Positions 6,455 through 56,280 of a stretch of DNA of 64,000 bases are shown here, one piece after another. The stretch's first letter is position 1. Every line of letters starts with the position of its first letter. Origin of the DNA: Fragilaria crotonensis. Taxonomy: Eukaryota; Bacillariophyta; Fragilariophyceae; Fragilariales; Fragilariaceae. The translations under genes were made by a program, and so were the position numbers. Under the pieces are notes generated by a model. It had not been told where the DNA came from and did no database searches. It worked only from the letters and a program-made list of their open reading frames with translations. The DNA is taken from NCBI GenBank assembly GCA_022925895.1, contig JAKSYS010000019.1, positions 176,982 to 240,981 of the forward strand. The letters are read 5' to 3'.

Positions 6455-6483
6455 TCCTACTCCTTTTTAAATTTGGTTTGTGC

Positions 6484-6505
6484 GTGTGTGTGTGTGTGTG
6501 TGTGT
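6484..6505. repeat. (GT)n microsatellite in the Helitron 5' region
   Basis: A run of about 11 GT units lies 29 bp inside the Helitron 5' end. The same position in the non-autonomous copy (minus strand, 56196-56257) carries about 31 units, so the run has expanded or contracted between copies. Confidence 0.9.
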
Positions 6506-6509
6506 CTGT

Positions 6510-7134
6510 TACGGAGTATGACCACTCTGGGGTATTGTTGTACTGTTACGTGGATTACATGTACTACAGGTCTACAGTACATAAATCGACGGTAATTTAT
6601 GTTGAAACGACAGTGTCTTACATTACTGTAGTACTGTACTGTAGGAATTCAAAGTTACTGGATGGAATAGTCATTGAATTCGTGGTGAACAGGTTGCATG
6701 ACAAATGCTACTGTAAAACATACCGTGCGATGAACTGCAATACTGGGGCATGAGCACAACACTGGGGGTACATACTGTGTACTCCTGTAGTAGCTTACGT
6801 TGGTACGTACTGTACCAGGATACTGCATACTGTAGAACAACATGTGACACTTCTGCCTCGGGTACGACGTATTGTACTGTACGTCTACTGGAATAGCATA
6901 CATTCGAAAAAACACAAGAAGCTTCGCCGGTCATTGTTTTAGCCCTAACAGCCGTGAAAAAGTTATTCCGACTCACTGACTTCCCATCGAAAAATAGCAT
7001 TACCGGAGGTAGGTTGCGCATTTTTTTCAATTTTTCAATAGAAGCCCCGCCGGGCTGGTCAATTCGTCTCCCATGAAGGAGAGTTGGTTACCTAATTAAT
7101 CTGTTACTTCAGTGCTAAGTACTTAGTGTACTAA
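6510..7134 (+). other. Helitron 5' non-coding leader
   Basis: About 620 bp lie between the microsatellite and the RepHel ATG. The first part, to about 6722, is conserved in the short Helitron copy at 55.9-56.3 kb and so probably contains sequences needed for mobilisation. The rest should hold the promoter of the Rep-helicase gene. No ORF here has protein character. Confidence 0.5.
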
Positions 7135-10100
7135 ATGTTCTCATTCGCTACCATTGATAATAACAGTTTGCAAAGAACTTCTTTCCAGCCAATCAGCATA
7201 TTTCTGCCATCATCTATGACGCCCAGTAAACGACCACCATCAACAAATCCACTTGCAATTGCAGCAAGGAAAAGGCGTGCCAAACTTCGTCTCCTGTCGC
7301 AAGAAGGTGGTGACACTGTGGCTGCTACTCAGATGGCTGCCATTGCCACCCAGGACCGGGAGCAGACACGACGTACACGTGCACAACATCTGCAGCGGTC
7401 TCAAGATGGTGACCCCGTGGCTGCCACTCAGATGGCTGCCATTGCCACCCAGAACCGAGAACAGACACGACGAACACGTGCACAACGTCTGCAGCGGTCT
7501 CAAGATGGTGACCCTGTGGCTGCCGCTCAGATGGCTGCCATCGCCATCCAGAACCGAGAGCAGACACAACGTACACGTGCACTACGTCTGCAGCGGTCTC
7601 AAGATGGTGACCCTGTGGCTGCCACTCAGATGGCTGCCATCACCATCCAGAACCGAGAGCAGACACGACGTACACGTGCACAACGTCTGCAGCGGTCTCA
7701 AGATGGTGACCCTGTGGCTGCCACTCAGATGGCTGCCATCACCATCCAGAACCGAGAGCAGACACGACGAACACGTGCACAACGTCTGCAGCAGTCTCAA
7801 GAAGGTGACCCTGTGGCTGCCACTCAGATGGCTGCCATTGCCACCCAGAACCGGGAGCAGACACAACGTACACGTGCACAACGTCTGCAGCGGTCTCAAG
7901 AAGGTGACGCTGTGGCTGCCACTCAGATGGCTGCCATTGCCACCCAGCACCGGGAGCAAACAAGACATACACGCCAAAGTCACCCACGCACCCATGGCGC
8001 AGGTTATTCATCTGCTCCTATCCCAGTCCGTCATGTACTTGGCCCATGCACATTTGAGTGTCAGGGATGCTCTGCTCTGCATTTTCAGGAAGAAACATCT
8101 GAAAGAGGCTTCTTTTCATCTTGCTGTGCCAAGGGCAAGGTATCTCTCCCACCTCTTGATCCCACACCAAATGTGTTGATAGAGCTTTTTCAAGAACCTG
8201 AAACATTCATGCCATTCATACGTGCCTACAACTCTGCCTTGAGTTTTGCCTCAATAGGCGTTAATGTGGATGATGGTTTGATTGATCGTACCCATGGAAT
8301 TTATACTTTTCGCATTCATGGCTCAATGTACCACCGGTTGGGATCATTGCTTCCAGCACCTGGACAGCATCCTGCATTTGCACAGTTATATTTTTATGAT
8401 ACTGAACATGAGGCAGACAATCGTTTACGTCATATGAATAAGTTGGACAAGCATACTGTTGAATCATTGCAGCAAATGATTCAGAATGAAAACCGTCTGT
8501 ATGGATTATTCAAGCAGGCTCTTGATGAGCAAACCTTGGTCAATAGTTCTGATGGCAATGATGTTGAATTGCCTGGCCACAATCTTGCAATGCATATCTT
8601 AGAGCAACCTGAATTGGACCACAGACGTTACAATCGTCCAAGTTCCAGTGAGGTGGCTGTGATACTTCCTGACCAAGGTTCAGGGAACCGCAATATTCGA
8701 GTACTGCATCATGGTGGAGTGATTCAATCCATCTCAGAACTGCATCCTGACTATTCTCCATTGGCCTATGTCCTTCTGTTTCCAACAGGGAGCCCACAAG
8801 GCTGGCATCCTGAAATGATGCAGACTGGTCCAAATGCTATGACTCCACCGTCTACAAAATTAACTTGCCTCATGCATGCTGCATTTCGTCTTTTTGTACG
8901 CCCTGCTCCTATGTTCTCCAATCACCTTCACCTTGCAGGAAAGCTGTTCCACCAATACATTGTAGACTGCTATGCCCAAGTGGAACAAGGTCGCCTTAAT
9001 TTCATCCGTCATAATCAACCAAAATTGCGTGCTGAACTATATCAAGGCATTGCAGATGCTGTTGCTGGAGAGGATGTGACTAACACACGACAGCTTGGGC
9101 GTCGAATTATTCTGCCTTCATCTTTCATTGGAAGTCCAAGGAACATGCACCAACTTTGTCAAGATGCATTGGCAATTGTGCGCCGAATGGGCAAGCCAGA
9201 TCTTTTTATTACAATGACAACCAATCCACAGTGGCCAGAAGTCATGGAAAATCTTCTTCCTGGACAAACTGCAAATGACAGACCAGATTTGGTGGCACGA
9301 GTGTTTCATCTCAAGTTCACAGAGATGATGAGTGATCTCCAGAAACGACAAGTGCTTGGAAGGGTTGTGGCTGCTATCTACACCATTGAATTTCAAAAGC
9401 GAGGATTGCCACATGCGCACATTCTGGTTATTCTGGCAGAAAATGACAAACCCCGTACAGAATCTGACATTGATTGTATCATTTCAGCTGAGATCCCTGA
9501 TGCATTGATAGATCCTGAGCTGCATGCAACTGTGAAGCGATGTATGTTGCATGGGCCCTGTGGCACCAAAGTTTCCCCAAATCGATGGCAAAGTCTGAAA
9601 TGTTGTAATAGTCCTACACACCACCCAGGTGAATGCACTGATAAGTATCCCCAGCCATTTCAAGATGAGACAACCCTCAATGATGATGGATTCCCTCAAT
9701 ATCATCGACGTGATGATGGAAGGACTGTGACTGTTCGAGGAGCCGAGTTGGACAACCGCTGGGTAGTGCCATACAATCGCTATCTTACCAAGAAGTATGA
9801 CTGCCACATCAACGTTGAGGTTTGCAACTCAGTGCAGGCTGTCAAATACCTCTACAAATATGTATACAAAGGCCACGACCGTGCTGCAGTCCAGGTTGGT
9901 GAAGATACTGATGAGGATGAGATCAACCTCTATCTTCAGGGACGTTATGTCTCTGCATCTGAGGCATGCTGGCGCCTCTTCAGTTTTCGTCTTCACACTG
10001 AAAAGCCAAATGTGATGCGCCTAATGTACCATCTTCCCAACCAGCAATCAGTTGTGTTTCAGGAAGATGAAACAGTTGATCAAGTACTTGCAAGGGGAGC

Positions 10101-12255
10101 ACCCCATACACAGTTGCTTGCATGGTTTGAACTCAATCAAAATGATCAATATGCTTGCCAGTTCCTGTATCATGACATCCCTCAGCACTATAGATGGGAT
10201 AATGCTGGGAAATGCTGGGTGCGGCGATCACCTAATCACCAGCAAAAATTCCCCACTGTATCTCGCCTCTACAGTGCTTCTCCTTCTTCTGGTGAGCGGT
10301 ACTTTCTGCGGCGCATGTTGACTGTTGTGAAGGGTGCAACAAGTTTTCAAGCTCTACGAACAGTGGATGGAGAACTTTGTCCAACATTTCAAGATGCCTG
10401 CCGTACACTAGGTCTTCTGGATGATGATACTGAGTGGCATAGAGCCATGCAGGAAGCCACACAGATAGTGTCAGCATGCCGGCTCAGAAGACTCTTTGCA
10501 ATCATCCTTTTCAACTGTGATGTCTCTGATCCAAAGTCCCTCTATCAGTCTTACTGGGCTGCAATGTCAGAAGACTTTGCACACCATCACCCTGGCTTCA
10601 CTGAACAACAGCTGCAGGACTTCCTTGTGCGTGAACTTGATGCCCTCCTGGGGATGATGTACAGTCATTCTGTATTTGAATGGGTACCATTCCTTCGCAC
10701 ACTTCTGCTTGAGCATCCAACTGCTGTGGATAATTCTATCAATCATTGGTTGCAATTACAGCTTTCGTCATCCAGCAGTGATATTCAACAACAGCTGGAT
10801 CGCTTCCCTCTTCTGAATGCCCAACAACATGCTATTTTTGATGCTGTCCTGGCATCTGTCAATAGTGGTACTCAAATTCAGCAAAATGTGTTCTTTGTTG
10901 ATGGGCCTGCAGGCTCAGGTAAGACAGAGTTGTTCAGAATGATCCTTGCAAAGGTGCGCAGTGAAGGACATGTTGCTCTTGCAACAGCTATATCAGGTAT
11001 TGCTGCCACCAACTTTGCTCCTTTGGGCCGTACACTGCACTATATATCTGGACTTCCAATTCAATTGTACGAAACATCCATGTGCAACCTATCAAAAGAC
11101 AAGGCAGAAGTTCTGAAGGTAGCAAAGCTTTTGATCATTGATGAGATCACAATGCTCAAGGGTGTTGGTCTTGATGTTCTTTCACAGTCTCTTTGTGACT
11201 TGCTTGAATGTGCTGATGCTCCTTTTGGTGGTTTGGTTGTTATCATGGGTGGTGACTTTCGTCAAGTGCTTCCTGTACTAAGCCATGCTGGACGAGCTAC
11301 CATTGTGCATTCAACTGTCCTACAATCTAAAGTCTGGCAGACTTCATCTGTGAACATAATGCAACTCTCTGAGAATATGCGATTGCGTATAGACTTAGAA
11401 AACACAAGTGACCCACAGCTGCAAGAAGTACTTTCCCATTTTGCATCATTCCTCTTGAGGATTGGTGAGGACATGGAGCCTTCCCCAATAAATCTACCAT
11501 TGTATATTTCTCAGCCTCAAGAAGTGAACGAACTGGTTGAGCATGTGTTTGATGATTTTTCTTCTAATGATCCACTCTATTGGTCTGAACGTGCTATCCT
11601 ATGTCCCAAAAACAAAGATGTTCAACAAATAAATGATATGGTATCATCAAGATTACCACATGATGAGCATATATTTCTCAGTATTGACAACATCATGTCT
11701 GAAGAAATTGATGATCCTGCATATACCCTCTATCCTCCTGAATTCCTGAACTCTTTGGAGCCATCAGGCCTCCCACCACATCGCCTCAGTCTAAAAAAAG
11801 GCATGCTGGTCATGTTGCTCCGAAACCTATCAAGTACACTCAGCAATGGCACCCGACTCATGGTTCGCCGTATCTCACGGTCCATCCTTGAATGTTCTGT
11901 TCCTACCTCTGGAGAAATTGTGGACATACCACGAATTGCACTCCTTTCACCAGAAGATGAACTGCCTTTCATCTTTAAACGACGACAGTTTCCAGTCCGA
12001 CCAGCATATGCAATGACCATCAACAAGAGTCAAGGTCAAACATTGCGAAAAGTTGGAATCTTTGTGCCACAAGGCATATTTGCACATGGTCAACTTTATG
12101 TTGCTCTTTCACGAGTTCGTAACCCACATGATCTTTTTTGTATTTACTGGTGGTCATCCACTGCACAACATTGTTTACAAGGAGGTCCTCATTTCAACAT
12201 TGTGCCCTCGGCATCATCAGCAACAAAATTAAACAAGTTCACTGGCTATTTATAA
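7135..12255 (+). CDS. Helitron replication initiator-helicase (RepHel)
   Basis: A single uninterrupted 1706-residue ORF. Residues about 55-280 form a basic N-terminal region of near-identical 33-residue repeats. A Helitron Rep domain follows: the HUH motif is GLPHAH with His760 and His762, and the tyrosine segment around 905-911 (KYLYKYVYKG) offers the paired catalytic tyrosines. The C-terminal third is a Pif1-type SF1B helicase, with Walker A GPAGSGKT at 1257-1264, Walker B IIDE around Asp1336, a GDFRQVLPV motif and the late INKSQGQT and YVALSRV motifs. Rep nicks and joins DNA ends while the helicase unwinds donor DNA. No OTU, RPA or endonuclease extra domain was seen. The ATG at 7135 is the first in frame. 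With all catalytic motifs present and no stop codon, recent activity is plausible. Confidence 0.93.
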   Translation: MFSFATIDNNSLQRTSFQPISIFLPSSMTPSKRPPSTNPLAIAARKRRAKLRLLSQEGGDTVAATQMAAIATQDREQTRRTRAQHLQRSQDGDPVAATQMAAIATQNREQTRRTRAQRLQRSQDGDPVAAAQMAAIAIQNREQTQRTRALRLQRSQDGDPVAATQMAAITIQNREQTRRTRAQRLQRSQDGDPVAATQMAAITIQNREQTRRTRAQRLQQSQEGDPVAATQMAAIATQNREQTQRTRAQRLQRSQEGDAVAATQMAAIATQHREQTRHTRQSHPRTHGAGYSSAPIPVRHVLGPCTFECQGCSALHFQEETSERGFFSSCCAKGKVSLPPLDPTPNVLIELFQEPETFMPFIRAYNSALSFASIGVNVDDGLIDRTHGIYTFRIHGSMYHRLGSLLPAPGQHPAFAQLYFYDTEHEADNRLRHMNKLDKHTVESLQQMIQNENRLYGLFKQALDEQTLVNSSDGNDVELPGHNLAMHILEQPELDHRRYNRPSSSEVAVILPDQGSGNRNIRVLHHGGVIQSISELHPDYSPLAYVLLFPTGSPQGWHPEMMQTGPNAMTPPSTKLTCLMHAAFRLFVRPAPMFSNHLHLAGKLFHQYIVDCYAQVEQGRLNFIRHNQPKLRAELYQGIADAVAGEDVTNTRQLGRRIILPSSFIGSPRNMHQLCQDALAIVRRMGKPDLFITMTTNPQWPEVMENLLPGQTANDRPDLVARVFHLKFTEMMSDLQKRQVLGRVVAAIYTIEFQKRGLPHAHILVILAENDKPRTESDIDCIISAEIPDALIDPELHATVKRCMLHGPCGTKVSPNRWQSLKCCNSPTHHPGECTDKYPQPFQDETTLNDDGFPQYHRRDDGRTVTVRGAELDNRWVVPYNRYLTKKYDCHINVEVCNSVQAVKYLYKYVYKGHDRAAVQVGEDTDEDEINLYLQGRYVSASEACWRLFSFRLHTEKPNVMRLMYHLPNQQSVVFQEDETVDQVLARGAPHTQLLAWFELNQNDQYACQFLYHDIPQHYRWDNAGKCWVRRSPNHQQKFPTVSRLYSASPSSGERYFLRRMLTVVKGATSFQALRTVDGELCPTFQDACRTLGLLDDDTEWHRAMQEATQIVSACRLRRLFAIILFNCDVSDPKSLYQSYWAAMSEDFAHHHPGFTEQQLQDFLVRELDALLGMMYSHSVFEWVPFLRTLLLEHPTAVDNSINHWLQLQLSSSSSDIQQQLDRFPLLNAQQHAIFDAVLASVNSGTQIQQNVFFVDGPAGSGKTELFRMILAKVRSEGHVALATAISGIAATNFAPLGRTLHYISGLPIQLYETSMCNLSKDKAEVLKVAKLLIIDEITMLKGVGLDVLSQSLCDLLECADAPFGGLVVIMGGDFRQVLPVLSHAGRATIVHSTVLQSKVWQTSSVNIMQLSENMRLRIDLENTSDPQLQEVLSHFASFLLRIGEDMEPSPINLPLYISQPQEVNELVEHVFDDFSSNDPLYWSERAILCPKNKDVQQINDMVSSRLPHDEHIFLSIDNIMSEEIDDPAYTLYPPEFLNSLEPSGLPPHRLSLKKGMLVMLLRNLSSTLSNGTRLMVRRISRSILECSVPTSGEIVDIPRIALLSPEDELPFIFKRRQFPVRPAYAMTINKSQGQTLRKVGIFVPQGIFAHGQLYVALSRVRNPHDLFCIYWWSSTAQHCLQGGPHFNIVPSASSATKLNKFTGYL
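7294..7974 (+). repeat. 99-bp in-frame tandem repeat, about 6.9 units, in RepHel
   Basis: Units start about every 99 bases (for example 7372 and 7471) and each encodes 33 residues with the core VAATQMAAI followed by QNREQT and RTRAQRLQ. Six full units and one partial unit are present, differing by only a few bases, so amplification is recent or maintained by conversion. The length being a multiple of three keeps the frame. Confidence 0.93.
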
Positions 12256-12497
12256 CTAACATTTGGGCAAACTAAATTAGCAAATTTCTATGAAATCATC
12301 ACATCTTCCCTTATCTACAGTTACCACTACATACATAGGTTATTTACGTATTTACAATGCCTTTCAGTATTGCACTGGAAACCAATACTATGCTGCAAAC
12401 TGGGTACTGTACATCCTTTAATACCGAACATTGGAAACACAATACCCACAACCCACTACCTATAGACCACTCCGATCAATTGTGAGGCACCCACTAG
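12256..12497 (+). other. Helitron 3' non-coding region and terminus
   Basis: This holds the RepHel 3' UTR and the terminal sequence ending CCCACTAG. The last 30 or so bases recur with few changes at the end of the short Helitron at 55935. The element ends 112 bp upstream of the GST-HIT start codon, so it probably sits in that gene's promoter. Confidence 0.65.
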
Positions 12498-21099: not shown

Positions 21100-21489
21100 C
21101 CAGCCAGCCCCTCGTTATTACACCGTTATCACTCTTGCTCTTGTATAGTCCGAAACTTCATTCTTTATTGCAGACTCAATAACGGTTTTAGAGCTCATTC
21201 GAAGCTCGATTTCTCATCCAATTCCTCAAACGACGATGAGATCGTGCATCTTTACACTCGTTGGGTTGGCATGTACCACGAGATGCACGGACTCATCGTT
21301 GTTCGGCTTTTTGGTGAAGTCGATTTGAGGCCTGAAATTGACATTCCACGTGGATGAAAATTGTGACCTTACTAATTCCCACGTAGGCTTCACGTGAGCT
21401 CAAATTCTCGATTGCAAGAATTTGGGAAATCACAGTATCTTTTGAGATGAAAGCAGCAAAACACACTTCCATTGCAATCGACGTCAAGA

Positions 21490-24400
21490 ATGCAGCTGCA
21501 TGATCTGTACAAACGAGGTAGGAGCTACCCAATCACATGTCTTTCATTCGGAAAAAATAGGAAAGAAGACTATCCTGACCATTTTTTTTGCCATGGATGC
21601 GATTTGCTTGAGGATGCTGTCAACAACAACATAAAAAGAGCGAACCGTGAACAGAAAAAGTATGCTTGCACAGGTGGACATTCGGATCTTTCCCAACCCA
21701 CGACAATGAAAAGCAAGTATCGTGAAAAGAACACCAAGCAAATTGGAAAGGGAAGTGGGGATGATTCATGTCGCAATTCTTCTGCTTCTACCGGCTCGGA
21801 CAACAGGAAGATAAACACCCGCAATACTCAAGTCGGCAGGCAAGGAAACCAGGATGATTCATATTACATTTCTTCTACTTCTACCATTGCAAGTGATAAT
21901 GAGAATCAAATCAAATCACCAACTGCAAGTCCCACCAAGAAAAAGCCTCGACGACAAAATTCTGGGGAATTGACAGGTTGTAGTATCATAGATACTACTA
22001 CCGAAGGTGACGATGATGAAAGCGCTGATGGTGAATCAGAGCTTGCTGCGCCCCAAAGATTGTTTGTGTCATACCGGACTGACAATGATGAACTAGTTCA
22101 AGGTCATCGTAGTAGATTGTCTAGCAATTATGATCAAGGTAAGGAAAAGAGCAGCCCCGACAGCAGAAGTCAAGTACTGTCAAGCACCATGGCCACACAG
22201 TCGCAGTTGACAACATGCATCACCCCAACAAGTAATAACCATGACAATTTTGAATCAAAGAAAGACTTGTATACTGCTGTGCTTGAAGAGAAGAATGCCC
22301 GACTGCATGAGCGCGTTATTGAACTTGATCGCAGCCATGTCAATCTGGTTGTGCAAGTGGAGGCGCTCACGGCAGAGATAACTCGTCTGAAAGTGCATGG
22401 CGATGATGTACAAGAACAAGGCCATGTCATTGCTACTGAAGAAAGTCAAATGTGCGATGAGAATAACACTTCTGCAAAGTCAAGGAAGCATCGAATTCAA
22501 GTTGAGAATACTAAATTTTCTCGTGAGTTGTCCATTCTTATAAATGACTTTGTTACGAGCTCATGTTTTGCAGACAAACGAAGATTTCCAATCAGTCGCC
22601 TTGCAAAGATTGTTGTCGACAGCATTCTGTCGTTTCAATGGACTCATTCTGAAGTTGCAAAATTTTCTTCGCACTGCAATGCTGCAGATGCTTGGTCTAC
22701 ATTGTCAGAGCTCTTGAATGTAAGGAACATGAAACGATGTCGTGACAAGAGCAAAGCTGCAATTCTTGTCGATTGTATGTGGGATGATAACTTTCTTGAT
22801 GGTGAAGTTCAACGCTGCATGGTTGAAAAGGTTCGTTGTCATCTTCGAACTCACGTCTTCAGTCCATGGAAAATTTTGAAGGCCATGGATGTTTCCGGTT
22901 TCAAGTTAAGTCTGGCTGGGATCGAGGTCTTACGGCGTGTCGATATGACAAGTAAATATGGAAGGGGCATTCTTCCAAGCAAGTCGACAATACTACGAGC
23001 AGCCAGGATGCTAGAAGCAGAGGCCGAGAGGTTTTGTCCATTCTCCATGATCGGACAAACATTTCAGGGCGTTGACAAGAACAACCTCAATGACGGGAAT
23101 GACATTGGTGAGGGCTTCGAATTCGATGCCATCAAGGTTACCAAGACATTGTTTGAAGCATTTGGTCTGATGGAGGTAGCCAAGAGACGAGCAGTAGATT
23201 TGGCACTCACGTCGGATGGTGCTCAGCTGACGAATACTATCTCCCATGTAGCAGCGGGACTAAAGTTTAATGATATGGCAATCTGCGATCCATTTACGAA
23301 GCGTCCGCTTTTGCTTCACGAACCTGATTCGCTTGTTCAGAGTAGAAATCTCTGCTTTCCGCTTCGAATCGTGATTGCAAAAGACACGAAGAAGACTCTT
23401 GATGGATTTCGAGCTCTATACAACAAATTTAACAATGGTGAGGTTGCGCGGGCATTACTTTGTCAGTCGTTTAAGATGTCCTTTCCTGGAGATATGAAGC
23501 TCCAGTGGGGAGCCCTCGATGATGGTGGGGCAGCCAAGGTTAAGGATAAGTTTTGCTACATTTGCCCTTGCCGGTCTTCATCGCTCCATGTACCTCAAGA
23601 CAAGACAAGGTGCTCGATATGCAGAGAGAAGCCCATACAAGTTGATAACGAATGTTATCACTATCCATTTGTTGCAGATCCGGAAGTGAGGGGAGAGCTT
23701 GAGGATGAGCTTCGTGTCCTGACAGAATTAGTTCATGATATTCTTATTGATGCTGATGGTGGCGACAATAACGAACAAGTCAACGAAACAAATCCTCGTC
23801 AGAAGATGTATGTCCGTCGCTCAGGTGACATTAGAATTGAAGGCGACACATTTGATATCGACTTCAAAGCAAGTCAACAAAGCGATAAGGCAATCTGGGC
23901 TCGGCACATCACTGATGAACTCGCTAGCCGTTCAATGCCGGTTACAGGCACTCTCTATGATCGCCAGCAGCGACTCCGACAGCAGCTTGTAAATGAGCAG
24001 AGAACTCGAGATATAACACGAATGTTAGCAGACAGTGAACCAAAGGATCAAGCTATGTACCTGGTGATGCAGGCAGTTGTATGTATTTTGCATTTGGAAA
24101 ATCGAGTCGGGTTAAAATGTATCGAGAGCATTCTTCGTTCAGGACTCTCCCATGCTAGAAAAGGACTGCTGGACTGGACAGTAGCAAAGGGGGTGAGTCG
24201 AAGACAAGATGAGTATGTGCATCGCATCACAAGCACAATCGGCACTCAGATTCTTGGTACAGCAATGGCGCCTTCTCAATGGCGATTCCCACTTAGTGAG
24301 GATGGAAGTATGGGAACATTGTCAATGGACAATAACCGCACTCGGTCTGTTATGAACTCAATAGAGTTACTCGTTGAGGAGTCCTTTCCCAACTCAGATG

Positions 24401-24939
24401 CTAATAAACACCTGTTGCTTCGTTGCTTTCATCGATATCGGGCAGCAATGATTATCCTTCGGAAGAACACAGATGCCACCGAGGATGAGATACGAACCTT
24501 TCAGGACCATATAGATGCCTGGTTTCAAGACTGGGTTAAAGTATATGGAAAAGAAGGATGTACGAATTATACACATATGCTATCTTCTGCTCATGTAATG
24601 CGATACATGCAAGAGTGGAAGTGCCTACACCGCTTCTCGCAACAGGGATGGGAGGCTCTCAATGCATTGATAAAGGCATATTTTTTCCGTCGAACCAATC
24701 GAGGTGGCTTGGCAAGGAATACGGCGAGGAAGAGCAAGCTTTTAGGCATTGCTAGATGGCTCCAGCGACGAATGATGTGGTTCAGTGGTCATGGTGATGC
24801 CCTGTTTATAAAATGTGATGACGACAATGAAGATGAAACAAGTTCATTCGAGGACAACGATGAGGAAGGTAATGACAACGATGACACAAGTACTGACAGC
24901 GAATACGACAGCAATGACATTGACGATGACGATGACTGA
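21490..24939 (+). CDS. Putative RNase H-like DDE transposase of the CACTA-ended transposon
   Basis: The protein has 1149 residues from the ATG at 21490; the frame opens slightly upstream without an ATG. In order: an N-terminal possible zinc-binding segment (CHGC, then CTGGH); a long polar Ser/Thr/Asp-rich region; a coiled coil near 260-305; and a probable catalytic core. Candidate acidic residues are Asp576 (SDGAQL), Asp668 (PGDMK) and Glu1055 (QGWEALN), with a Cys-rich insertion after the second (CYICPC and CSIC, about 688-715). This spacing resembles DDE enzymes with a large insertion, such as RAG1/Transib and CMC transposases. The C-terminus is a strongly acidic tail of about 45 residues. 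Family assignment is inference; the catalytic triad is proposed by pattern only. The frame is intact over 3.4 kb. Confidence 0.66.
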   Translation: MQLHDLYKRGRSYPITCLSFGKNRKEDYPDHFFCHGCDLLEDAVNNNIKRANREQKKYACTGGHSDLSQPTTMKSKYREKNTKQIGKGSGDDSCRNSSASTGSDNRKINTRNTQVGRQGNQDDSYYISSTSTIASDNENQIKSPTASPTKKKPRRQNSGELTGCSIIDTTTEGDDDESADGESELAAPQRLFVSYRTDNDELVQGHRSRLSSNYDQGKEKSSPDSRSQVLSSTMATQSQLTTCITPTSNNHDNFESKKDLYTAVLEEKNARLHERVIELDRSHVNLVVQVEALTAEITRLKVHGDDVQEQGHVIATEESQMCDENNTSAKSRKHRIQVENTKFSRELSILINDFVTSSCFADKRRFPISRLAKIVVDSILSFQWTHSEVAKFSSHCNAADAWSTLSELLNVRNMKRCRDKSKAAILVDCMWDDNFLDGEVQRCMVEKVRCHLRTHVFSPWKILKAMDVSGFKLSLAGIEVLRRVDMTSKYGRGILPSKSTILRAARMLEAEAERFCPFSMIGQTFQGVDKNNLNDGNDIGEGFEFDAIKVTKTLFEAFGLMEVAKRRAVDLALTSDGAQLTNTISHVAAGLKFNDMAICDPFTKRPLLLHEPDSLVQSRNLCFPLRIVIAKDTKKTLDGFRALYNKFNNGEVARALLCQSFKMSFPGDMKLQWGALDDGGAAKVKDKFCYICPCRSSSLHVPQDKTRCSICREKPIQVDNECYHYPFVADPEVRGELEDELRVLTELVHDILIDADGGDNNEQVNETNPRQKMYVRRSGDIRIEGDTFDIDFKASQQSDKAIWARHITDELASRSMPVTGTLYDRQQRLRQQLVNEQRTRDITRMLADSEPKDQAMYLVMQAVVCILHLENRVGLKCIESILRSGLSHARKGLLDWTVAKGVSRRQDEYVHRITSTIGTQILGTAMAPSQWRFPLSEDGSMGTLSMDNNRTRSVMNSIELLVEESFPNSDANKHLLLRCFHRYRAAMIILRKNTDATEDEIRTFQDHIDAWFQDWVKVYGKEGCTNYTHMLSSAHVMRYMQEWKCLHRFSQQGWEALNALIKAYFFRRTNRGGLARNTARKSKLLGIARWLQRRMMWFSGHGDALFIKCDDDNEDETSSFEDNDEEGNDNDDTSTDSEYDSNDIDDDDD

Positions 24940-24987
24940 CATCGCAGCTACTACAAAGAATCGAACTTGACATAGAAGAACATACTA
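24940..24987. other. 48-bp convergent intergenic spacer inside the transposon
   Basis: The two transposon genes end 48 bp apart, so their transcripts probably overlap at the 3' ends. No terminator signal is obvious. Confidence 0.5.
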
Positions 24988-26472
24988 CTATTCTAACATT
25001 TGTTGTATCTTGCGATAGACGGTCTCAACATCTCTGAACACTACAACTTCCAGAGCATTCACTTTTAAAGTCCTCCCGGTGTTGTCAAGTATTTTGTATA
25101 CCTTCGTAGCATGTATCTCGCCAACATTACTTCGGACTTCTTGTACTCGCATCACATACATACCGTCAATGAACTCCATTCCTGGTGTAATGATGCTGAT
25201 TCTTTCATTGTTGTTGGAAGCGATACGATGGCGAGCTCCGGCATCACTGACACCAACATCGACAAGTGAATGCAAGGATTCATTTGTAACGACAAGCTTT
25301 CGATATCTTAGAGAAATCTGAAGTGTACCCTCCGATGAGTCATAGGACAAGTCGATACCATCTTCTGTGCAGAAACGCTGAAATACCGAACATGTTGAAC
25401 AGTCACTCTTGTCGTCATCATCCGATTCTTTGCTTTCTGAAGGACACACAGCATTTACAACATCGTTTATACTCAACAGAAATGGGCCATCACTATACTT
25501 GGGTCGCTTCTTACGGACCCCGTATCCAGCCATCCTACCAAAGAGTCCCCGAAAAACATCCAACTTTTTAGCTGTGTCAAAACGCAAGACATCAAGGCAC
25601 CCGGTACGTCGGCGCGAATGATAGACAAGTCCCCAGGAAAGGAAGGCTTGAGGTTGGCTGTACTTTACTGTAGAGATGCTTTCTACACCTCCGGCTGCCA
25701 TTGCATTCTTGATAAAGTACCAAGTGCAACTTGGTAGTTGCAGCTTCGTATTCTTCACTGTGAAATCACCCTGTGACTGGGCAACACGGCAGAGCACTCG
25801 TTGCATTTCTTGTCTTATGTGCCGGATGGCATTGAATGTAAGTTCGCAATAATCCACTGACCAAAGCTTGTGAAAACTCTCAATTTGCCCTGGAAAAGGT
25901 GGGCATGTGTGTCGAGGGATCACAGAAACAATGCCCTCTCCTGAGATGCGATACTTTGTAACATAAAAATTTGACATTCCTCTGCAATCGTCAAAGGCAT
26001 CATCATCCTCGTATGCAACAAAAGCAAGGCCAGCAATGTCATAGGATGGTATCCAGTCAAATTCATTGACTTGGACAATTCTGTGCCATCCATTAAACCG
26101 ATCATCGCCCTGAGGAAAATCGCAACCAGAAAACAATGTGCGATCGTGAAAGATGTTCACCTTCACAAATTGCACTGGAATTTCATTTTCAAATCTATCT
26201 GGTGATGCAAGCAGATGGATGATTTGATGCTTTTCATGTTCAGGAACCAAATCGATTGATGTTGCAACTTCAACCACACGACCAACTCTCGGTGATTGCT
26301 CATCCACTCTACTCCGAGTACTGTATCTCACAAACGATCCAGCTGTCACAGAGATCTTCAGGGAAGGAATGTACACGGTGTTCTTAAAGGAAGTGGGATT
26401 CAGTAATTCCCAACTTGTTGAGGATGACTTGGTGGGCTGCTGCATCTGTGTCATATCATCATTGTCAGTCAT
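24988..26472 (-). CDS. Second protein of the CACTA-ended transposon, function unknown (possible BAH-like module)
   Basis: The protein has 494 residues from the first ATG (26472). The frame is open to about 26532 and a short upstream exon is possible. Residues about 35-170 alternate beta-like segments (ISVTAGSFVRYSTRSR, PRVGRVVEV, IPVQFVKVNIF, DWIPSYDIAGLAFVAYED), a pattern reminiscent of BAH or similar chromatin-binding modules. This is weak evidence. The middle has conserved-looking Trp/Cys/His residues (HTCPPFPGQ, LWSVDYCELTF). Lying inside the inverted termini and facing the transposase, it is probably an accessory factor for DNA binding or regulation, as TNPA is in CACTA elements (analogy only). 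No catalytic motif was recognised. Confidence 0.55.
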   Translation of the reverse strand: MTDNDDMTQMQQPTKSSSTSWELLNPTSFKNTVYIPSLKISVTAGSFVRYSTRSRVDEQSPRVGRVVEVATSIDLVPEHEKHQIIHLLASPDRFENEIPVQFVKVNIFHDRTLFSGCDFPQGDDRFNGWHRIVQVNEFDWIPSYDIAGLAFVAYEDDDAFDDCRGMSNFYVTKYRISGEGIVSVIPRHTCPPFPGQIESFHKLWSVDYCELTFNAIRHIRQEMQRVLCRVAQSQGDFTVKNTKLQLPSCTWYFIKNAMAAGGVESISTVKYSQPQAFLSWGLVYHSRRRTGCLDVLRFDTAKKLDVFRGLFGRMAGYGVRKKRPKYSDGPFLLSINDVVNAVCPSESKESDDDDKSDCSTCSVFQRFCTEDGIDLSYDSSEGTLQISLRYRKLVVTNESLHSLVDVGVSDAGARHRIASNNNERISIITPGMEFIDGMYVMRVQEVRSNVGEIHATKVYKILDNTGRTLKVNALEVVVFRDVETVYRKIQQMLE

Positions 26473-26658
26473 CACATGCAGTGGCTGTAGTACTCGAGCA
26501 GAGCGACGAGGATACTCATACTTGAGTGCCAAAAATGCGCGAAGAGGAAGCTAAGCAACTTACTTAAACAATTTTTTTAAATGTTATGCCTCGAAGATGA
26601 AGTGTGCATTTCATCGAAGACGTTAAAATCAGAGTCAAATTGTGGCTCATAACCAAAA

Positions 26659-30495: not shown

Positions 30496-30675
30496 ATTTA
30501 CGACTCCAGAGCAGAGTCCTGCACTGGGTACCCATACCCAGTACCCACCCAGTACCCACCCATACCCATGGATAATGGGTGGGTATGGGCACGCCCAACC
30601 AGTGGGTGGGTGGGTATGGGTGGTCCAAACTCCACTGCGCAAATCGTGGGTGGGTAATGGGTGGTCTAACCTGCC
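30496..30675 (+). repeat. GGGTA/TACCC-rich repeat, left copy
   Basis: It starts CCAGAGCAGAGTCCTGCACT followed by strings of TACCCA and GGGTGGGTA with an internal dyad near 30565. The outer segment matches 35725-35752 in reverse complement, so the two copies face each other 5.2 kb apart. G-run density makes quadruplex formation possible. Confidence 0.75.
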
Positions 30676-30779
30676 CACACGAATCGACCATTGCACTCCA
30701 TTTCTCCAAGTATCCTGTATCCTGTAGCTAGTAGCCATAGGGCACTCCAGTACCATTTCCTAGTGTGGTGCGAGGCGCA

Positions 30780-33700
30780 AATCAATGTTGATTGTCACAA
30801 TCCCCAATTTAATTCATATTCTGTGTTCAGACTTGGAGTTGCAGAAAATAGTCCTATCAAATGCTTCATTGGTGATATTGATGGCACCCTTGGATTGTAT
30901 GTACTAAGCTTACTCATAGACTAGTACACAAATCAATGTGCCTCAATCCCAAAGAACAGCATGTCCTGGGTGCCAAATTCCTTTGTAAATGCAAAATGTG
31001 AGGGCTGAAATGGAGATGCAAAAAATGCAACTGTCAGGAATTATGAAGATTTTTTGGTCGTAGTACTGATGGCAGCCATTGATTGCAATGGATAGTATGC
31101 AAACTGATTGACTAGTGGGCAATTCAATGAGCAATTTGCAACTATAGCACAATTGATGCTTTCCACTTAAATGGATGATATTCAGTAGGCAGACAGTGAG
31201 ATAAAACAAAATTGTACTGGTGTGGGTTGCTTGGTGTGCATTGATTGCATTGCTTGATGGCATCCTTGGAAGCGCTTCACTTTCCAAGCTCATTGACTTC
31301 TTGAACAAGATTCAATGCATGATCCCAGAATGCAATAAAAATACTATGCAGAAATTCTCATTTTGGAAATGAAAAACTAGCTGTCATCATGATGGTTTCT
31401 TAAGTGTGTATTGGGTGTATTGACAGCACCCTTTGATTGTCAGTACTATCCATGCCCATCAACACTTGTTGAATTCAATGCACAAATCAACACTTTGGGT
31501 GTGGGATCCTAGTTAAAGAGGTGCAAAATCTGTGGTCAACCTGGGAATTGGAAAGTTTTGGTCAATATTTGTTGAGTTTTTATTATGTGGTATTGATGAC
31601 ACCCATTGATGGTAACTGACTTCTGGTAAACTCAGTGCACAAGCAAATCCAGCACACTTGTTTACTTGGTGTAGGATCCGTGCTCAAATGCAAAAACTGC
31701 GGTCAGCTATGGGCATGGAGAAATTATTCTGTCAGTGTTTGTTGTATTTTCTTCGGTTGTTTTGTTGACCCTTCTTGATTCTAACAACTTTCAATACAAA
31801 CTGACTGTTGCGCAAACAAGTATGCAAAACCCCGGAGTACACAACTTTTGCAGATTGGGGGTTCCCACTTCAATTCATATTCTGTGGTCAGACTTGGAGA
31901 TGCGGAAGATGGTCCTGTCAAAGTCTCTTTCAGTTGCATTGGTGATAATCATGACACCTTGGATTTTTGTAGTGAGCTTACTTATTGGTTGAATCACAAG
32001 GCGATGCACAGCCAAGCCCCAAATATACAGGGTGCAGAGTCCCCATTGTAATGAAAAATCTGAGGGCTGCATTGGAGATGCAGAACAAATCTTCTGTCAA
32101 GGAATGTTGAGGGTGTATCAGAAATGTTTTTGACACCTAGGATTTTGTAGTGAGCTTACTTATTGGTTGAAAGGCAAGTCAGTGCACAAGCCCCAAACAT
32201 ACAGGGTGCAGGGTCCCCATTGTAATGCAAAATCTGAGGGCTGCATTGGAGATGCAGAACAAATCTTCTGTCAAGGATTGTTAAGTGTGTATCAGAAATG
32301 TTTTTGACACCCTAGGTTTTTTTGTAGTGAGCTTACTGATTGGTTGAAAGACAAGTTAGTGCACAAGCCCCAAATATACAGGGTGCGGGGACCCCTTTGT
32401 AATGCAAAATCTGAGGGCTGAATGAAAGATGCAGAAAAAATGTTCTGCCAGAGTTTGTCAAGTTTGCATTGATGATACCGACGGCATCCTTTGAGTGGGT
32501 ATATATACCCATTGACTAGTGTGCAATTCAGTGGGTAATTTGCCACAATTGCCGATACAGGGTTTTTTGATTAATGAATATTCTGCAGTCAGACATTAAT
32601 ATTCAGAATTGTACTGTTGTATTTTGTTGAGTGTGTATGGATTGTATTGATGGCATCCTGAGATCCTTTCAACCTTTTTTGCTCATTGACTTCTTGAAGA
32701 TTCAATTATGATGCCAAAATGCGAACAAAAAAATACACAAAAATGATCAATACTCAATGGATTTTGGATTTTAAAAAATCAAAAACTGGCATTTACTCCA
32801 TCATCAAATGCCTGAGACTCATTGGCTGAAGCTCCCGCAACAATATTTGCTTTGGGAGTTAGTGTTGGTGTTAGCGACATAAGTTAATGTGAAATTTAGG
32901 ATGGGATCACATGTTATCTACTAGTATTGCAATCACACAAATCAGAAGTACTTTATGTTCTGAGCTTGTCAGTTGCACTATAACAACCCTAGCATTGACT
33001 TTCGTTGCTGGAGCTTCTGTAAATGAGTCTCAGGCATTTGATGATGGAGTAAATGCCAGTTTTTGATTTTAAAATCCAAAATCCAATGAGTATTGATCAT
33101 TTTTGTGTATTTTTTTGTTCGCATTTTGGCATCATAATTGAATCTTCAAGAAGTCAATGAGCAAAAAGGTTGAAAGGATCTCAGGATGCCATCAATACAA
33201 TCCATACACACTCAACAAAATACAACAGTACAATTCTGCGGAATATTAATGTCTGACTGCAGAATATTCATTAATCAAAACCCTGTATCGGCAATTGTGG
33301 CAAATTACCCACTGAATTGCACACTAGTCAATGGGTATATATACCCACTCCAATCAAAGGATGCCGTCGGTATCATCAATGCAAACTTGACAAACTCTGG
33401 CAGAACATTTTTTCTGCATCTTTCATTCAGCCCTCAGATTTTGCATTACAAAGGGGTCCCCGCACCCTGTATATTTGGGGCTTGTGCACTAACTTGTCTT
33501 TCAACCAATCAGTAAGCTCACTACAAAAAAACCTAGGGTGTCAAAAACATTTCTGATACACACTTAACAATCCTTGACAGAAGATTTGTTCTGCATCTCC
33601 AATGCAGCCCTCAGATTTTGCATTACAATGGGGACCCTGCACCCTGTATGTTTGGGGCTTGTGCACTGACTTGCCTTTCAACCAACAAGTAAGCTCACTA

Positions 33701-55934: not shown

Positions 55935-56192
55935 CTAGTGGGTTCCTCACAACTGATCGGAGTATGTACGATACATTCTGGTGTTTTACAGTATTCATAG
56001 AGCATTTGCGAAGCAACCTGTTTACAGCAAATTCAATGAGTATTCCGTCCAGTAACTTTGAATCCGTATAGTATTTTACTTCAGTAACGTAGGACACTGT
56101 CGACATAAATTACCGTCGATTTATGTACTGTAGACCTGTAGTACATGTGATCCACGTAACAGTACAACGGTACCTCAGAGTGGTCATACTCC

Positions 56193-56259
<67 letters not shown>

Positions 56260-56280
56260 CAAATTTAAAAAGGAGTAGGA
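55935..56280 (-). mobile_element. Non-autonomous Helitron, 346 bp
   Basis: Read on the minus strand it begins TCCTACTCCTTTTTAAATTT at 56280 after a host A and ends CCCACTAG at 55935 before a host T. These are the termini of the autonomous element at 6455-12497. It keeps about the first 270 bases of that element, including the GT/CA microsatellite, and the last roughly 30 bases, with the coding region missing. It could be mobilised in trans by the RepHel protein. Confidence 0.85.
56196..56257. repeat. (CA)n microsatellite, about 31 units
   Basis: An uninterrupted CA run inside the short Helitron. The matching run in the autonomous copy is only about 11 units. Confidence 0.97.

Follow-up and report, generated by a model that had tools for sequence, protein, structure and literature searches.

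The window analysed here, a stretch of 64,000 nucleotides of Fragilaria crotonensis DNA, contains a long Rep-helicase reading frame between two short terminal sequences, which raises the question whether these delimit a complete Helitron and whether this element moved recently. The first-pass annotation had answered yes to the first and had taken the intact motifs as pointing to recent activity. Canonical Helitrons possess a 5'-TC and a 3'-CTRR terminus, insert between A and T without target duplication, encode a RepHel protein with an HUH motif, two catalytic tyrosines and a Pif1-type helicase fused behind the Rep part, and carry a hairpin of 16-20 nt at 10-15 nt from the 3' end (features as given in PMC13286980, PMC6544945 and PMC2267711). 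Much of the known Helitron mechanism comes from the reconstructed Helraiser (PMC4778049), which gives value to natural Helitrons that are complete and have young copies; here a single genome combines an open RepHel frame with both ends of the element and with some hundreds of family ends. We are nearly certain that window 6455-12497 is a complete, canonical Helitron of the autonomous type, that 55935-56280 is one of its deletion derivatives and that both belong to a family with several hundred ends in the genome (Table 1). The element is solid but ordinary, and adds one member to a known Helitron family.

Table 1. Positions, in the window, of the Helitron, its parts and its short copy.
Feature	Position	Strand	Remarks
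Complete autonomous-type Helitron, subfamily A, 6043 bp	6455..12497	+	Adjoined by host A (6454) and T (12498); C81 has the same site
5' terminus TCCTACTCCTTTTTAAATTTG (5'-TC)	6455..6475	+	57 exact genome copies with TA before; 1 with CC before
RepHel transposase ORF, 1706 aa	7135..12255	+	Pfam Helitron_like_N 6.4e-63, PIF1 8.5e-52; Helraiser E 2.5e-274
In-frame tandem array, 99-bp unit (33 aa), 6.8 copies, N-terminal part of RepHel	7304..7973	+	
Helitron_like_N (Rep) domain, aa 592-765	8908..9429	+	HUH motif GLPHAHIL from 9403
Catalytic tyrosines Y905 and Y909 (YLYKY)	9847..9861	+	Align with Helraiser residues 727 and 731
Pif1-like helicase domain, aa 1227-1445	10813..11469	+	Walker A from 10903
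Weak imperfect palindrome CTCCGATCAATTGTGAGG	12470..12487	+	10 nt before the 3' end, the usual place of the Helitron hairpin; stability not above shuffles
3' terminus CCCACTAG (CTRR type)	12490..12497	+	Read directly; recurs on other copies
Non-autonomous copy, 346 bp, same termini	55935..56280	-	Sits between A and T

The junctions of the window copy read A|TCCTACTCC at 6455 and CCCACTAG|T at 12497, in agreement with the host bases previously assigned to them. TCCTACTCC is present twice in the window compared to 0.18 times expected, and GAGGCACCCACTAG, with at most two mismatches, also twice compared to 0.29 times expected. The claim that a 346-bp element on the other strand shares both termini was borne out as well: its ends, set between A and T, are those of the window copy, to which it is identical over 28 bp across the 5' junction; identity amounts to 85% over 253 bp of the 5' region and, at the 3' end, to 93.5% over 31 bp. 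In the assembly searched (62.1 Mb, 881 contigs, here numbered C) this short copy has at least 43 other matches longer than 150 bp, one of which, on C644, shares its flanks. Copies on C438, C775, C218 and C482 and several short ones possess the same TC...CTAG ends in unrelated flanks. TATCCTACTCCTTTTTAAATTTG occurs 57 times genome-wide (reversed control 0). A search for the exact 5' end of the window's subfamily A with a base other than T at position -2, which leaves out T at -2 followed by a base other than A, returned one place in the genome, with CC before it. The family also comprises a subfamily B, approximately 85% identical to the window ORF, with its own 5' end, TCCTACTATATTATAAATT, and at least 23 long copies (31 of 48 candidates scored). 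A pattern for the 5' ends of both subfamilies, which excludes G at -2 by design, matched 311 genome places (reversed control 0); by hand count of the 100 listed among these, TA precedes the end in 91, A stands at -1 in 95 and T at -2 in 93, and 20 are A-type compared to 80 B-type. At C25:26383-26870 and C13:95340-95394, 5' termini lie closely spaced, four of the five with G instead of A before them, which suggests tandem 5' ends from slippage or recombination. In the B copy of C144 (locus L023), G+C-rich, coding-looking sequence replaces the 3' part from about position 6600, and CCCACTAG was not found downstream in the locus; this might be either a truncation or a captured segment.

Among fetched loci with exact termini, the base at -1 is A in 23 of 24 distinct 5' contexts and the base at -2 is T in all 24, the window copy and its C81 allele being counted separately, and the base at +1 is T in 19 of 20 distinct 3' contexts. 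C182 is the exception at +1, and the one at -1 is a second 5' end that stands in tandem on C13. Deviating termini were kept apart from these counts, namely the 3' ends of L003 (CACTAC|G), L036 and L037 (CACTCTAG|T) and L038 (CACTTA|T) and the 5' end of L036 (C|TGCTAC). As only 17.6% of the AT dinucleotides in the window have a T before them, the target of this Helitron is best written TA|T, for which we claim no novelty. Insertion between A and T without target duplication follows from these contexts together with exact uninterrupted sites. For the B copy on C180, an uninterrupted counterpart is present at C871 (97% over approximately 200 bp), reading ...CAATTA|TACATT... across the junction, with zero duplication or loss. 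Four more places match across this junction at 83-94%, and because all five matching places (83-97%) look like a repeat family, we regard the counterpart as a related empty site and dropped it as a proven empty allele. A single search for allelic empty sites, in which 40 of 191 candidates were scored, gave no match across the junction for 10 of 12 joined sites; at the joined site of C711 the matches ran approximately 17 bases beyond the junction, and it was set aside. Joined sites are exact to a few bases, some left boundaries being 1-3 bases off, and the C180 junction was redone exactly.

Two further exact uninterrupted sites lie within the family itself. The A copy on C775 and a 241-bp element in C573 are each inserted in a B-element 5' terminus, TCCTACTATA|TTATAAATT; both junctions were read, and other B copies show the terminus uninterrupted. 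C182 looked like a third such case, with its 5' junction in a B terminus, and was rejected because it lacks a clean CTAG end at the far junction. With ends that recur in unrelated flanks and sites that can be read uninterrupted, the earlier claim of a complete Helitron defined at both ends holds. The apparent read-through of L005 (C23) into its right flank was discarded, the same 100 bp, counted from the junction, being present at 100% in at least eight further places; in the three of these eight that were fetched, a Helitron 3' end was found upstream in none, and the short Helitron at L005 looks as if it adjoins the border of another repeat.

The ORF at 7135-12255 has no stops, compared to 50 to 123 in its other five frames, and the HUH motif (GLPHAHIL from aa 757), both tyrosines (in YLYKYVYKG) and the Walker A motif (GPAGSGKT from aa 1257) are intact; the protein has the canonical RepHel layout with the helicase behind the Rep part. 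The claim of an intact 1706-residue Rep-helicase is thereby upheld, with a qualification for the last approximately 39 residues given below. Its closest solved relative is bat Helraiser (PDB 7lcc, E 2.5e-274), with an alignment over aa 214-1667. The N-terminal repeat matches zero Pfam families above cut-off, and a low-confidence single-sequence model (mean pLDDT 68.9, pTM 0.21) renders it as long helices. Its copy number varies, from 5.7 in C438 and C775 to 6.7 in the 11 B copies examined and 6.8 in the window. A scan of viral contigs with the Rep part yielded no relatives. In the reading frame of the window copy, with gapped codons skipped, dN/dS amounts to 0.16-0.17 (Rep) and 0.19-0.20 (helicase) against four B copies and, behind the repeats, to 0.135-0.138 against C438 and C775; the values against C81 and C218, 0.35 and 0.44, rest on few changes. 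These comparisons show purifying selection on the RepHel protein.

Whether the window copy itself is young is another matter. C81 carries the same insertion as the window contig, C120, and the flanks common to the two on both sides rule out two independent insertions. The near flanks differ by 7 substitutions in 2038 bases and the elements by 29 in 5989; in the wider left flank, identity is 93-96%. Other parts of the window have matches of 91-96% on C556 and C644. Because they match the window flanks and further window parts, C81, C556 and C644 look like a second haplotype. C644 carries the 346-bp copy too, and since each of the two insertions is thus present with shared flanks on contigs of this putative second haplotype, both would date from the haplotype split or earlier. 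Nothing marks the window insertion as demonstrably recent. The first-pass annotation had taken the intact frame as a sign of recent activity, a reading that is supported in part: the window insertion is common to both haplotypes, and C438 is open over Rep and helicase too; recent movement of the family is supported by other copies, namely subfamily B and the pair C438/C775. The annotation had also held that an element fixed at orthologous sites and with its ends lying elsewhere would speak against its proposal; the insertion is indeed common to both haplotypes, and the ends stand.

C438 and C775 have only 8 differences in 5950 bases and different flanks. Of the 23 long B copies 11 were examined and 10 enter the counts, C144 being dropped as its replaced 3' part misaligns; six of the ten are 1-4 substitutions away from the column majority in approximately 5.8 kb and the other four 6-13. 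These small distances support recent movement of the family, both in subfamily B and in the pair C438/C775. The nearest copy to the window copy at another site, on C218, is 1.68% different. This distance, the presence of the insertion in both haplotypes and a frame change in the C-terminal part of the window ORF favour the reading that the window copy is an old insertion that is no longer mobile, its frame being open by chance or domesticated by the host. Conversely, both ends and all catalytic motifs checked are intact, and dN/dS between lineages is low, though it reflects more shared history than that of the window copy alone. We consider such an old, immobile insertion quite conceivable, with the balance tilted somewhat against it; it would be compatible with the identity of the element as a Helitron.

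A second reading makes the window copy the sole intact master that drives broken copies in trans, as Feng8 drives members of the wheat Xuan-Feng family (PMC13286980). When aa 586-1706 were used in a six-frame search, a stop-free match over the full query was obtained for the window copy alone. Quite apart from the break near the 3' end, small frame breaks interrupt 14 of the 15 other long copies that were aligned; the remaining copy, C218, is free of small breaks in the part it has kept, but is without approximately the first third of the ORF. The nature of these breaks points elsewhere. Against 51 substitutions, ten B copies together have 93 small deletions and 32 small insertions, the breaks being mostly deletions of 1-2 bases, and 54 of the 93 deletions fall in runs of three or more, where 13% of the bases lie (p 4e-24). 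Host sequence is struck likewise: the C81 contig has 6 small deletions in 2038 host-flank bases compared to 25 in 5989 element bases (p 0.54), and in 1201 bases of host sequence on C556 there are 7 substitutions, a 7-base deletion and three small deletions. The small frame breaks of the other copies therefore look for the most part like indel errors of the assembly. Moreover, C438 is open over positions 1-1085 of the 1121-residue query, comprising Rep and helicase, with further breaks before aa 500. Given this indel spectrum, the similar deletions in host sequence and a C438 copy that is open over Rep and helicase, we did not adopt the sole-master reading, which we consider improbable; with C438 open and the breaks in the others mostly error-like, the intact frame does not single out the window copy. 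The case shows that assembly indel errors can make one copy seem uniquely intact.

The window copy may itself be affected. Near the 3' end of the ORF it has a run of six T, compared to 3-5 T in the 14 copies readable by pattern, and all 15 other long copies aligned have one or two bases fewer at this run. Owing to these extra bases the last approximately 39 residues of the window ORF are in a frame common to none of the 15, and this change too may be an assembly error. The C81 copy of a host GST-like ORF is also hit by small deletions, and calls based on ORFs on C81 and C556 need care because host genes are struck there too.

Helentrons and Helitron2-type elements have another target and other termini, and often an endonuclease domain. 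That the present element belongs to these instead of to the canonical Helitrons is very hard to maintain: a strong hairpin near the 3' CTAG was not found, but the 5' TC, the 3' CTAG and the A|T insertion are canonical, the protein can be aligned with Helraiser from aa 214 to aa 1667, and the 15 Pfam matches of the RepHel ORF up to E 1 include zero endonuclease families.

At the 3' end, the imperfect palindrome at 12470-12487 lies in the place of the canonical hairpin. In predicted folds of the last 40 or 60 nt, none of eight 3' ends was clearly more stable than shuffles (z -0.5 to 0.93). The most negative z, -1.99, came from one B end when its last 100 nt were folded as the bottom strand. In B ends, TGGG and CCCA can pair in a 4-bp stem overlapping the terminus (-2.9 kcal/mol, z -0.76).

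Helraiser/Helibat1 of bats (PMC4778049; PDB 7lcc) and the window family are alike in the RepHel layout with HUH motif, two tyrosines and Pif1-type helicase, in the 5'-TC and 3'-CTAG ends and in insertion between A and T. Helraiser differs in its 19-bp palindrome 11 nt from the end (PMC4778049), whereas the window family is without a predicted stable 3' hairpin, has a stricter TA|T target and carries the N-terminal 33-aa tandem array. The wheat Xuan-Feng family likewise combines autonomous and short non-autonomous members with common ends, TC/CTAG termini and a preference for AT (PMC13286980); in its member Xuan1 a hairpin of 17 nt lies 11 nt from the end, and mobility was shown experimentally (PMC13286980), whereas the window family has no predicted stable hairpin and its mobility is read from its sequences. 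Helitrons are also established in the genome of another stramenopile, the brown alga Ectocarpus, where the Helitron row of the table in PMC12477816 ends in 1.10%, the likeness drawn here being one of presence in the genome.

On the model of the Helraiser work (PMC4778049), and with the active site conserved, transposition would be of the rolling-circle, copy-and-paste kind: the transposase would nick before the 5' TC via one tyrosine, the Pif1 helicase would unwind one strand as new synthesis fills the donor again, and a cut via the second tyrosine would free the CTAG end, after which the single-stranded (circular) copy would enter a target between TA and T. Movement in trans would account for the short copies, which have kept both ends. 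Tentatively, the elements could represent a Helitron lineage that recognizes the trinucleotide TA|T and not AT, terminates without a stable 3' hairpin, carries a basic, helical 33-aa N-terminal repeat in variable number, moves as several subfamilies in parallel within one genome and inserts into its own 5' terminus, a possibility worth entertaining without being the favoured one. If true, this lineage could be a natural test case for 3'-end stopping without a hairpin. With so weak a palindrome at the 3' end and so strict a TA|T target, termination and target choice are directly testable.

The window holds other repeats besides. Positions 1-2609 belong to another mobile element with at least 14 further copies at 99-100% over nearly the whole stretch, and because C81 matches the window only from 2604 on, this insertion looks heterozygous and young. 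Positions 21472-26532 contain two long ORFs (1155 and 514 aa) with zero Pfam matches and are matched at 68-74% on C150, C87 and C421, perhaps as an unnamed transposon. At 30505-32000 another high-copy repeat starts, with many copies at 90-99% and with internal parts inverted.
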